NCBI RefSeq assembly: GCF_004341885.1
Contig: NZ_SLVX01000002.1
Location: forward strand, 62,001 to 126,000
Length of the DNA: 64,000 bases
DNA from: Shinella granuli
Lineage (GTDB): Bacteria; Pseudomonadota; Alphaproteobacteria; Rhizobiales; Rhizobiaceae
Direction of reading: 5' to 3'
The notes beneath the pieces are model-generated. The model searched no databases. It had not been told where the DNA came from and saw only the letters and a list, made by a program, of their open reading frames with translations. Below, piece by piece: positions 23,994 through 26,849 of the stretch; positions within the stretch are counted from its first letter, which is position 1; each line of letters opens with the position of its first letter. The translations under genes and the position numbers were made by a program.

Positions 23994-24902
23994 ATGGCAC
24001 TCAAGAAGCTTCTCGGCGGGATCGTCGTGCTCGGCGCGATCGGCGCCGGCGCCTTCCTCTTCATCACCGCGCCGGAGCGGCTGCCGGCCGAGACCTGGGC
24101 CGCGGCGGGCGCGCCGGACCTGGCGAACGGCGAGCGCATCTTCCATGCCGGGGGCTGCACGAGCTGTCATGCCGCGCCGGGCGCGGCCGATGACCAGAAG
24201 CTGGTGCTGGCGGGCGGCCTTGCGCTGAAGAGCCCGTTCGGCACCTTCCACGCGCCGAACATCTCTCCCGACGAGACGGCCGGCATCGGCGCCTGGACGC
24301 TGGCGCAGTTCGGCGACGCGATGAAGCGCGGCACCGGCCGCGACGGCGAGCACCTCTACCCGTCCTTCCCTTACGCTTCCTATGCGCGCATGACGGTGCA
24401 GGACATCGCCGACCTCTACGGCTACCTGAAGACCCTGCCGAAGAGCGGCAATGTCGCGCCCGGCCATGATCTGCCGTTCCCGTTCAACATGCGCCTGGCG
24501 CTCGGCGGCTGGAAGTTCCTCTATCTCGACGAGGCACCGCGGGTGGCGCTTGCGAGCGCCGACGAGACCATCAGGCGCGGCCAGTATCTCGTGGAAGGGC
24601 CGGGCCATTGCGGCGAGTGCCACACGCCGCGCGACGTCCTCGGCGGGCTCAAGACGGACCTCTGGCTGGCCGGCGGGCCGAACCCGGAAGGCGAGGGGCG
24701 CGTGCCCAACATCACGCCGGCCGAGGGCGGCTTCGGCAGTTGGAGCGCGGGCGACATCGCCAGCTATCTCGAAACCGGCTTCACGCCGGAATTCGACAGC
24801 GTCGGCGGCGCCATGGTGCCGGTGCAGAAGAACATGGCGCTGCTGCCGAAGGAGGACCGCGAGGCGATCGCGGCCTATCTGAAGGCGATCCCGGCGCATT
24901 GA
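23994..24902 (+). CDS. Membrane-anchored diheme cytochrome c
   Basis: 302 aa. Residues 5-28 form an uncleaved-looking N-terminal membrane anchor. Two class I haem motifs follow, CTSCH near residue 54 and CGECH near residue 205, each in a cytochrome c domain with conserved downstream loops (NISPDETAGIGAWTLAQFGDAMKRG and NITPAEGGFGSWSAGDIASYLETG). These are the hallmarks of the cytochrome subunits of membrane-bound alcohol/aldehyde/gluconate dehydrogenases, although only two of the usual three haems are present. It should hand electrons from a periplasmic dehydrogenase to the respiratory chain; the partner is not adjacent. The PQQ glucose dehydrogenase at 27 kb normally uses quinone directly. 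Confidence 0.88.
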   Translation: MALKKLLGGIVVLGAIGAGAFLFITAPERLPAETWAAAGAPDLANGERIFHAGGCTSCHAAPGAADDQKLVLAGGLALKSPFGTFHAPNISPDETAGIGAWTLAQFGDAMKRGTGRDGEHLYPSFPYASYARMTVQDIADLYGYLKTLPKSGNVAPGHDLPFPFNMRLALGGWKFLYLDEAPRVALASADETIRRGQYLVEGPGHCGECHTPRDVLGGLKTDLWLAGGPNPEGEGRVPNITPAEGGFGSWSAGDIASYLETGFTPEFDSVGGAMVPVQKNMALLPKEDREAIAAYLKAIPAH

Positions 24903-25053: not shown

Positions 25054-25647
25054 TCATGCCGTCACGCCCGGCGCCTTGCGGTGCTCGTCGCCATACAGCG
25101 CGAGATAGTCGAACAGGTCGGCGGAGCCGAGGCCGATGGCGTCGAGGATTTCCCGCGTGAAGGAGACGGGGGCCGTGCCCGAGGCGGTGATGACGGCGCG
25201 GTCGCTGACGGCCTGCGGCTGGTCGCGATAGAGCGCCGCCCCGCGATAGCCGGGCACGACCTGCGGCAACTGTCCGCGATAGTTGCCGGTATGCGCCCGG
25301 TCGTCGAGCAGGCCGAGGCGGCCGAGCGCCAGTGTCGCATCGCAGATCGCGGCGACCGGCTTGCCCGCCGAAACGAAGCGCGCGACCGGAGCCGAAAGGT
25401 CAGGCGCCTCGCCGGATTGCCAGATCGTGCCGCCGCACAGCACCAGCACGTCGAAATCGCCGGGCGCGGCGTCCTCCGCCCTGCCGGCGGATCGGATGGA
25501 GACGCCGCCAAGCGAGGTCACCTCCGCGCCGCCGGGCGTCAGGACCACGGTCTCGGCCCCGCAGTCGCCCCGCGCCGTCGCCATCAGCAGCCCGCATTCC
25601 CAGTCGGCGTAACCCTCGGTCAGCACGATGGCCAGTCGCTTTGCCAT
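25054..25647 (-). CDS. DJ-1/PfpI-family protein (class I glutamine amidotransferase fold)
   Basis: 197 aa from the ATG at 25647 (MAKRLAIVLTEGYADWE); a longer frame to 25692 lacks support. It has the DJ-1 flavodoxin-like core with the Glu of GYADWECGLL near residue 15 and the nucleophile-elbow Cys in PVAAICDATLALG near residue 102; the usual CHG is CDA here, as in some YoaZ/type 1 amidotransferases. The family includes glyoxalases, deglycases and chaperones; function here is undefined. It starts 25 bp after the GNAT gene and is likely co-transcribed with it under the attenuator at 26212-26347. Confidence 0.85.
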   Translation of the reverse strand: MAKRLAIVLTEGYADWECGLLMATARGDCGAETVVLTPGGAEVTSLGGVSIRSAGRAEDAAPGDFDVLVLCGGTIWQSGEAPDLSAPVARFVSAGKPVAAICDATLALGRLGLLDDRAHTGNYRGQLPQVVPGYRGAALYRDQPQAVSDRAVITASGTAPVSFTREILDAIGLGSADLFDYLALYGDEHRKAPGVTA

Positions 25648-25672
25648 GTCGATGTCCTCCCCCAGCGTATTG

Positions 25673-26173
25673 TCAGCCCAGGGACTGGACATAGCGCATC
25701 CCGGTGACCGGGCCAGCCCGGAAGTTCATCTGCTCGTAGAAGCGGTGGGCGCCGAAATTGCCGGTCGCCGCGCTCACCGAGAGGTAGCCGCAGCCGGCGA
25801 TGCGGGCGTGCTCGCGGGCGCGGGAGACGAGGTGGCGGCCGATGCCGTGGCCGCGATGGTCCTTGCGCACGAAGATCTGGTGCAGCTCCATGCCGCGCAG
25901 ACCTTCCAGCGCGCGGTACATCGGCACCAGCAGGGCGTAGCCGATCAGCCGGCCGCCGGCTTCGGCGACGAGCGCGGTGATCCAGGGATGGGTGCCGAAG
26001 AGGTCGCGGTCGAGGTCGGCGGCGGAAACCTTCGCCGTGTCGCCGTGGCATTCGGCATGCAGGGCGATCATGTCGAGGATCTGCTGCAGGTCGCCCCGGC
26101 GCGCGGCGCGGATGGTCAGCATCGGCGGGCGTTCGAGGGCGGCGGGGTCGAGTTTGATGACGGTATTCTGCAT
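25673..26173 (-). CDS. GNAT-family N-acetyltransferase under attenuator control
   Basis: 166 aa from the ATG at 26173 behind CCAGGAGCCCGAA. The GNAT fold is clear: LTIRAARRGDLQQILDMI at beta1-alpha1, ELHQIFVRKDHRGHGIGRHLVSRA as motif A with the acetyl-CoA loop R-x-x-G-x-G/A, and NFGAHRFYEQMNFRAGP as motif B. The length and FFGTHPW region resemble diamine/aromatic or antibiotic acetyltransferase-like members, but the substrate is unknown. What marks it out is the 5' leader: a leaderless 16-codon reading frame with a Tyr-Phe-Trp-Leu-Phe run, followed by mutually exclusive hairpins. If real, the enzyme is made when aromatic aminoacyl-tRNA is short. Confidence 0.88.
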   Translation of the reverse strand: MQNTVIKLDPAALERPPMLTIRAARRGDLQQILDMIALHAECHGDTAKVSAADLDRDLFGTHPWITALVAEAGGRLIGYALLVPMYRALEGLRGMELHQIFVRKDHRGHGIGRHLVSRAREHARIAGCGYLSVSAATGNFGAHRFYEQMNFRAGPVTGMRYVQSLG

Positions 26174-26211
26174 TTCGGGCTCCTGGGTTTTGTGCCATCA
26201 GGTGCCAGAAA

Positions 26212-26240
26212 CAACAAAGCCGCCTGATGGCGGCTTGTTG
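26212..26240 (-). terminator. Attenuator terminator hairpin ahead of the GNAT gene
   Basis: On the minus strand CAACAAGCCGCC pairs with GGCGGCTTTGTTG around ATCA, followed by TTTCT, 39 bp before the start codon. A competing pairing exists: GCGGCTGTT at 26257-26249 can pair with AAC-A-AGCCGC inside the 5' arm, and that segment can in turn pair with GCCGC in the leader ORF near 26290. Confidence 0.75.
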
Positions 26241-26261
26241 ACATGATCGAACAGCCGCTCC

Positions 26262-26312
26262 TTATCGGAACAGCCAAAAATACGTCGCGGCGATGGGTGC
26301 GTTCGTGATCAT
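26262..26312 (-). CDS. Leader peptide with a Tyr-Phe-Trp-Leu-Phe run
   Basis: ATG at 26312 opens 16 codons, MITNAPIAATYFWLFR, ending TAA at 26262. The -10 element AATATC lies only six bases upstream, so the predicted transcript begins at the A of ATG and the message is leaderless, as known for rhizobial trpL. Five consecutive large hydrophobic/aromatic residues, four of them aromatic, sit just before the stop, right where a stalled ribosome would cover segment 1 of the attenuator. It is too short to be a functional enzyme; its role is to measure Phe/Tyr/Trp-tRNA charging. Confidence 0.7.
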   Translation of the reverse strand: MITNAPIAATYFWLFR

Positions 26313-26318
26313 GGACGC

Positions 26319-26347
26319 GATATTCTCGAAATTCCGCCCGTTGTCAA
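26319..26347 (-). promoter_or_regulatory. Sigma-70-type promoter of the attenuated GNAT operon
   Basis: TTGACA (26347-26342) and AATATC (26324-26319) with an exact 17-bp spacer on the minus strand. The expected start point coincides with the first base of the leader-peptide ATG at 26312. Confidence 0.7.
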
Positions 26348-26387
26348 TCGGGCCTCGCAAGAAAAAGACGGACGAAAGCGGAGGTGG

Positions 26388-26849
26388 TCAGCCCTCCGCT
26401 TCCTCCCGGCCGGCGCCGGCGGCTTGCCCTTCCGCCCCGTCGGCGGTCTCGTCGACGCCGAGCTGTTCCTTGATGGCGCGGCGGATCTCCTCCTCGATCG
26501 CCGACCGCGTCTCCGGCGGAAGCTGCGCAAGGCTTTCCTCTGTGAGGCCCATCGTCTCCAGCAGTTCCTTGCGCAGCCGTTCCACGGCCGTCATCCTGGA
26601 AAGCTCCATGAACTCGGCGACGAGCCCGTCGCCTTCGACCTCCGTTCTGTCGAGTTTCGCCTGGGTCAGCCAGAGCGCGTTGGCAAAGCTGGAGGAGAGG
26701 GAGGTGGTGGGGGCGACGGTCGGCACGTTGCGGGCCGAGGCGTTGCCGCCCGCCCCGTTGCCGCCGGTCTCGTTATAGAGGCTGTCCTCGCTCGCCGCGC
26801 GTGGCTTGCTGAAGGCGTAGGCGGTGTAGAGGCTACCGTCGATCTTCAT
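26388..26849 (-). CDS. Hypothetical protein, charged helical C-terminus
   Basis: 153 aa from the ATG at 26849 (MKIDGSLYTAYAFSKPRAASED). The N-terminal ~60 residues are Gly/Asn/Ser-rich and look flexible. Residues ~75-130 form amphipathic helices rich in Glu/Arg/Leu (FMELSRMTAVERLRKELLETMGLTEESLAQLPPETRSAIEEEIRRAIKEQLG), a segment seen at the C-terminus of many rhizobial proteins of unknown role. No signal peptide or membrane helix. Monocistronic, ends 41 bp before the promoter of the GNAT operon on the same strand. Confidence 0.7.
   Translation of the reverse strand: MKIDGSLYTAYAFSKPRAASEDSLYNETGGNGAGGNASARNVPTVAPTTSLSSSFANALWLTQAKLDRTEVEGDGLVAEFMELSRMTAVERLRKELLETMGLTEESLAQLPPETRSAIEEEIRRAIKEQLGVDETADGAEGQAAGAGREEAEG

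Follow-up and report, generated by a model that had tools for sequence, protein, structure and literature searches.

We find that a GNAT N-acetyltransferase gene in Shinella granuli is preceded by a short open reading frame (ORF) with adjoining Tyr, Phe and Trp codons, by mutually exclusive RNA helices and by a terminator. Sequence comparison and folding models indicate that this leader is most likely a trpL-type, ribosome-dependent transcription attenuator that controls the GNAT gene, and a DJ-1/PfpI gene where one is present. The leader very probably switches GNAT on under shortage of Tyr, Phe and Trp in rhizobia and their relatives.

The leader lies on the minus strand of the window, the 64,000-nucleotide (nt) stretch of DNA analysed here; all features below are on this strand and are given in window coordinates. 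Reading of the sequence and a recheck of the coordinates give the order TTGACA, 17-nt spacer, AATATC, ATG-initiated ORF, terminator, GNAT and DJ-1, so that the promoter sequences, the ATG, the ORF and the terminator lie where a first-pass annotation had put them. The −35 element TTGACA (26342..26347) retains TTGAC in all 85 leaders compared, and the distance from TTGAC to the ATG is 34–36 nt in 82 of the 85. That annotation's reading of a leaderless aromatic attenuator is supported. The −10-like element AATATC (26319..26324), separated from the −35 element by 17 nt, was read from the sequence and missed by a consensus scan; transcription is predicted to start on the A of the ATG, at 26312. The predicted leaderless ORF (26262..26312) spans 16 codons, encodes MITNAPIAATYFWLFR and ends in TYFWLFR before its stop codon, with Tyr TAT, Phe TTT and Trp TGG as codons 11–13. 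Immediately 3′ of the stop codon is segment 2 (GGAGCGGCT, 26253..26261). Segment 3 (AGCCGC, 26230..26235) can pair either with 26258–26253, forming the antiterminator, or with segment 4, forming the terminator hairpin (3:4; 26212..26240), which reads CAACAAGCCGCC ATCA GGCGGCTTTGTTG and is followed by TTTCT, an interrupted T tract. The proposed regulated gene is GNAT (25673..26173; 166 amino acids; PF00583), and the DJ-1/PfpI gene (25054..25692; PF01965) is an optional second one.

A consensus scan of 3 kb returned no promoter, the −10 element being poor, and one terminator where 1.6 were expected in shuffled sequences. With no promoter and a terminator count at chance level, the window alone is weak evidence, and it is conservation that carries the case. 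No Rfam family exceeded its gathering cut-off in the window, the best match at 26100–26400 reaching 11.7 bits against a cut-off of 39.

To describe the distribution of the leader, we searched 297 genomes of the window's family with a covariance model (R1) built from 32 non-redundant members of the 85 leaders, and a family sample of equal size and composition with a GNAT profile, taking orthologs at E at most 1e-28. All 68 GNAT orthologs in this 297-genome sample have an R1 match less than 300 nt upstream. Conversely, 72 R1 matches have E below 1e-4 in the 297 genomes, and only four of these lie away from GNAT, either before tyrS (L168, L169 and a fragment in L167) or orphaned (L170). Weaker matches (E 1e-4 to 0.01, 23 places) were left out of these counts; among seven of them that were inspected, six were without such a leader and one was an aroG leader. 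The ORF itself is present in all 25 GNAT orthologs of more than 50% identity, the window's own counted, and an ORF of 16 or 17 codons with Tyr-Phe and Trp is found at all 80 named loci, the best 80 of 373 relatives, among which is Sinorhizobium meliloti. The three locus sets (25 orthologs, 80 named loci and 68 family-sample orthologs) overlap and are not independent. Identity between the GNAT of the window and those at 12 named Shinella loci is 83–97%. Five more distant GNAT paralogs have no such leader within 380 nt upstream. In other families of the class (11 GNAT homologues, E at most 1e-20), nine homologues have no candidate leader and two have candidates of reduced content, with Tyr-Phe only in L193 (VYFTSAI) and Tyr only in L188 (ARY). 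Reading the genes around two GNAT homologues from outside the order yielded no hint of function.

This distribution also bears on a competing account, in which the upstream gene simply ends in its own terminator and the ORF is accidental. That account fits the single terminator-like site of the 3-kb scan, which is within chance, and we give it almost no weight: the element is found at 68 of 68 sampled orthologs with constraints on codons, spacing and structure, and the two genes that lie upstream in the window neighbour just 28 and 37 of the 80 named loci. A 153-amino-acid protein encoded upstream of the leader (26388–26849), near 28 of the 80 named loci, has no Pfam or NCBIfam match.

Within the ORF, the Tyr, Phe and Trp codon content is kept, in support of the earlier proposal that several aromatic residues are sensed. 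The Phe codon is TTT in all 85 leaders, a codon that is rare in the host (TTT 12 to TTC 126 in nine window ORFs taken as likely host genes). Tyr is encoded by TAT in 82 of the 85, and the second codon of the ORF is ATC in 83. Trp follows Tyr-Phe (+2 from Tyr) in 70 leaders and precedes it (−1) in the other 15, which may reflect a single evolutionary event. Each aromatic codon is present once or twice per leader, not as a run, which, like the interrupted T tract, speaks against an attenuator. At the margins, the leader of L171 (RYFTLFR) is without Trp and that of L172 has WFYY, its GNAT being 40% identical.

Such content might instead belong to a nascent-chain arrest peptide, with a drug or metabolite in the ribosome causing a stall at a YFW-type sequence and so inducing a resistance acetyltransferase. 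The regulated enzyme does have the GNAT fold, as many resistance enzymes do, and YFW is found in 70 of the 85 leaders. However, 15 of the 85 leaders have the order WYF, RYFTLFR is without W, GNAT homologues carry the WFYY, VYFTSAI and ARY forms, similar leaders stand before biosynthesis and tRNA-synthetase genes, and the TTT used for Phe in 85 of 85 leaders is not required by a signal at the peptide level. As residue content is kept and order is not, tRNA sensing fits better than an arrest peptide, and we judge the latter to be very unlikely.

Folds and swap tests agree on the presence of mutually exclusive 1:2, 2:3 and 3:4 helices. The competition between a 2:3 antiterminator and a 3:4 terminator, as first proposed, is seen in the folds, and the terminator GCCGCC-loop-GGCGGC is found in 85 of 85 leaders. 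The 2:3 helix is nearly invariant, with 97.4% of cells paired and one covarying pair; 1,617 of 5,000 permutations do as well in the swap test, and this near-invariance leaves covariation little to say. For the 1:2 helix, segment 1 corresponds to the Trp-Leu-Phe codons (26267..26275), which pair with segment 2 in the minimum free energy (MFE) fold and for which none of 5,000 permutations is as good; on the MAFFT alignment, covariation of this helix is not above that of shuffles. The comparison of orthologous 5′ regions, which the first-pass annotation had put forward as a check, came out largely in its favour, with codons kept and 1:2 covarying by the swap test, and with a near-invariant 2:3 that has barely anything to add.

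The first-pass annotation had placed segment 1 in the Ala-Ala codons. Only 35 of the 85 leaders contain the GCCGC that would pair there, and the leaders' own pairs with segment 2 are worse than permuted ones (4,987 of 5,000 permutations at least as good), so that the swap test rules this candidate out. A further helix seen in the fold, H0, pairs GATCAT (26243..26248) with the complementary start ATGATC (26312–26307). Its covariation is weak (121 of 5,000 permutations as good). Since GATCAT lies after the stop codon, this pairing may shut off the start codon when the whole leader has been made.

The effect of ribosome position was modelled by masked folding of 75 distinct leaders, with an assumed footprint and with the RNA ending before segment 4. 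In the absence of a ribosome, the 2:3 helix has a mean probability of 0.61 and exceeds 0.5 in 48 of the 75 leaders; with a ribosome at codon 3, the mean is 0.72 (above 0.5 in 61 of 75). The mean rises to 0.97 when the A site is on the Tyr codon, to 0.90 on the Phe codon and to 0.88 on the next codon, and falls to 0.00 with the ribosome on the stop codon (above 0.5 in 0 of 75). The folding model thus separates a stalled from a terminating ribosome sharply, and a stalled ribosome from an untranslated leader moderately. Some leaders (L024, L060) favour the antiterminator at part of the stall sites only. The proposal that a stalled ribosome blocks segment 1 holds in this model, with its site moved from the Ala-Ala to the Trp-Leu-Phe codons; a segment 1 in these codons means that the ribosome is placed correctly. 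When the full leader is folded at equilibrium, the terminator wins in every ribosome state, and the switch must consequently be kinetic.

From this geometry we infer the following course of events. Transcription would start on the ATG, and a ribosome would trail RNA polymerase along the ORF of 16–17 codons. If charged Tyr, Phe or Trp tRNA is short, the ribosome would wait on codons 11–13 and cover segment 1, whereupon the 2:3 helix would form, the terminator would be blocked and GNAT would be transcribed. In good supply, the ribosome would reach the stop codon and cover segment 2, and transcription would end after approximately 100 nt.

The first-pass annotation missed two pairings downstream of the leader, as well as the leaders before aroG, tyrS and prephenate-dehydrogenase-like genes. 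In the first pairing, H4, the inner stem and loop of the terminator (GCCATCAGG, 26223..26231) pair with CCTGATGGC (26194..26202). In H4, 94.8% of cells are paired and four pairs are changed on both sides, a number reached by 8 of 500 shuffles; its covariation score is reached by 0 of 500, and none of 5,000 permutations is as good in the swap test. The second pairing, H5, joins an anti-Shine-Dalgarno sequence (GGCACC, 26201..26206) to the GNAT Shine-Dalgarno sequence (GGAGCC, 26178..26183), again with 0 of 5,000 permutations as good. H5 is weaker in the MAFFT alignment, where 63% of its cells are paired; because MAFFT misplaces the Shine-Dalgarno sequence, the alignment-free swap test was used for this helix. 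H4 and H5 share two bases, the CC of GGCACC, and H4 also competes with the terminator. The covariation of the terminator loop with downstream RNA and the Shine-Dalgarno hairpin are new here, and suggest a second, translational tier of control.

Taken further, these pairings could mean that control is mainly translational, with H5 hiding the Shine-Dalgarno sequence, the state of the leader setting the opening of H4, and termination being minor, a reading compatible with the attenuator. H4 and H5 beat permuted pairings, H4 does so on the alignment too, and in 48 of 48 distinct sequences H4 is favoured while the Shine-Dalgarno sequence has yet to be transcribed. The GNAT Shine-Dalgarno sequence is also mostly paired in equilibrium folding, as it is in the fold of L193, the GNAT homologue from another family. 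However, at equilibrium it is hidden equally in the two states (unpaired probability 0.25 versus 0.26), and its unpaired probability after antitermination is higher in 8 of 77 leaders and lower in 7. In the shortened RNA, H4 forms even with the terminator free to compete (mean 0.96); as it forms in both cases, this calculation does not separate the states. We consider mainly translational control to be unlikely. Since the Shine-Dalgarno sequence is hidden alike and the states are not separated, the second tier itself is a proposal. Its fullest version is a two-tier attenuator in which the terminator loop would pull downstream RNA off the Shine-Dalgarno sequence, so that only antiterminated RNA would be both transcribed and translated. 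The controlled acetyltransferase would then be induced by shortage of all three aromatics and detoxify an inhibitor of aromatic supply or tRNA charging, such as a plant Tyr analogue or an inhibitor of a tRNA synthetase or of the shikimate pathway. As a whole, this version has a low probability in our estimate.

The same helices bear on whether the leader acts on the gene next to it. It could be a translated small mRNA, or a source of a trans-acting small RNA or peptide, with GNAT read-through being secondary; its predicted leaderless start and its terminator end resemble those of rnTrpL of S. meliloti, as described in two published accounts (PMC7298713, PMC10117765). The strict link to GNAT (68 of 68 sampled orthologs) argues instead for control in cis, as do the helices that reach the GNAT ribosome-binding site. 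A primary role in trans is thus rather improbable, whereas an added trans action would be compatible with cis attenuation of GNAT.

As for the target of this attenuator, the first-pass annotation named GNAT and DJ-1 together. GNAT stands, being linked to the leader at all 68 sampled orthologs, but DJ-1 is not a constant partner: it is downstream at 41 of the 80 named loci only, which leaves GNAT alone as the constant target. A convergent cytochrome c gene (window 23994–24902) is near GNAT at 76 of the 80 named loci, with no evident functional link. The enzyme belongs to the GNAT superfamily (PF00583, 67.3 bits versus a cut-off of 20.7, E 1.8e-18), and none of its 16 NCBIfam matches reaches its own cut-off, the best having 37.7 bits against 250. 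Its predicted structure (mean pLDDT 85.6) has an SSAT-like fold. The nearest solved sequences and folds are SSAT and thialysine acetyltransferases (2bei, 3bj7) and the probable acetyltransferase 2fe7, at about 27–31% identity, so that their substrate cannot be carried over. No protein named as a glyphosate acetyltransferase is among the best 50 solved sequences or the best 50 of 1,201 fold matches, and we retain that activity as no more than one example. It is possible, though we hold this tentatively, that the enzyme is SSAT-like and acetylates a small amine or an amino acid, thereby lifting a block on the supply of aromatics or on the charging of their tRNAs.

The same covariance model finds, in other genomes, short aromatic-codon ORFs with terminators before tyrS, prephenate-dehydrogenase-like genes and aroG. 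YY leaders precede tyrS (TIGR00234) in L142 and L143, which are from other families, and in L168, and a YFYY leader of the tyrS group is found in L147. The tyrS leaders in L168, L169, L167 (fragment), L142 and L143 share the ending YYAT(S/L/F)P. YY leaders also precede prephenate-dehydrogenase-like genes in L144, L145 and L146, genes that score below curated cut-offs. Leaders of aroG-type DAHP synthase are found in L151, L153, L155 (the same as L181), L156, L159, L160 and L164, where the identity of aroG comes from NCBIfam for L151 and L155 and from reading for the other loci. Their runs are (S/N)YFW(Y/N)F, SNFWYF or SFWYFY, that is, of YFWYF or FWYFYY type. Together, the aroG, tyrS and prephenate-dehydrogenase-like leaders are suggestive of a regulon of aromatic attenuators within this order.

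Several loci stand beside these groups. An orphan tyrS-type leader with a terminator is found at L170:1918-2027, with tyrS not found in the following 4 kb. At L152:1501-1602, and also in L149 and L157, a terminator comes after a short ORF encoding MEPNLV(V/I)E(Y/F)YSR; the gene 44 nt after this ORF in L152 looks like that of a PP-loop ATPase by its SGGKDS motif. In the window's own genome, the search for a class I aroG gave only one PF00793 match, a 310-amino-acid frame that we take to be KdsA, and the region upstream of the class II DAHP synthase gene showed no short ORF with many aromatic codons.

In the literature searched, with supplements and the survey of Vitreschak et al. (2004) outside its scope, no earlier description of the GNAT, aroG, tyrS or prephenate-dehydrogenase leaders was found, and four leader-peptide core strings were absent from the full texts searched. 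The leader gives this GNAT family a strong physiological clue, a tie to aromatic amino-acid supply that holds throughout the family genomes sampled, the laboratory model S. meliloti among them. Should H4 and H5 work in the way suggested above, a single RNA strand would couple transcription attenuation to control of the ribosome-binding site.

The enterobacterial pheL and trpL attenuators follow the same logic of 1:2, 2:3 and 3:4 helices, with regulatory codons before or in segment 1, as here; unlike the GNAT leader, theirs combine a ribosome-binding site with runs of a single amino acid. The trpL (rnTrpL) attenuator of trpE(G) in S. meliloti is ribosome-dependent and has a leaderless ORF at the 5′ end of the transcript, according to published accounts (PMC7298713, PMC10117765). 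Likened by features, the two leaders have in common that they are rhizobial, that the ORF starts at the transcript 5′ end (a prediction here) and that they form an attenuator. S. meliloti trpL has consecutive Trp codons and a biosynthetic gene, whereas the leader described here sets Tyr, Phe and Trp side by side before an acetyltransferase; where the trpL family is defined by a run of Trp codons and a trp gene downstream, we find one Trp codon and GNAT. The aroG, tyrS and prephenate-dehydrogenase-like leaders (L151, L155, L142, L143, L168 and L144–L146) precede genes whose enzymes make aromatic compounds or charge tRNAs, and it is in this respect that the GNAT leader differs from them.
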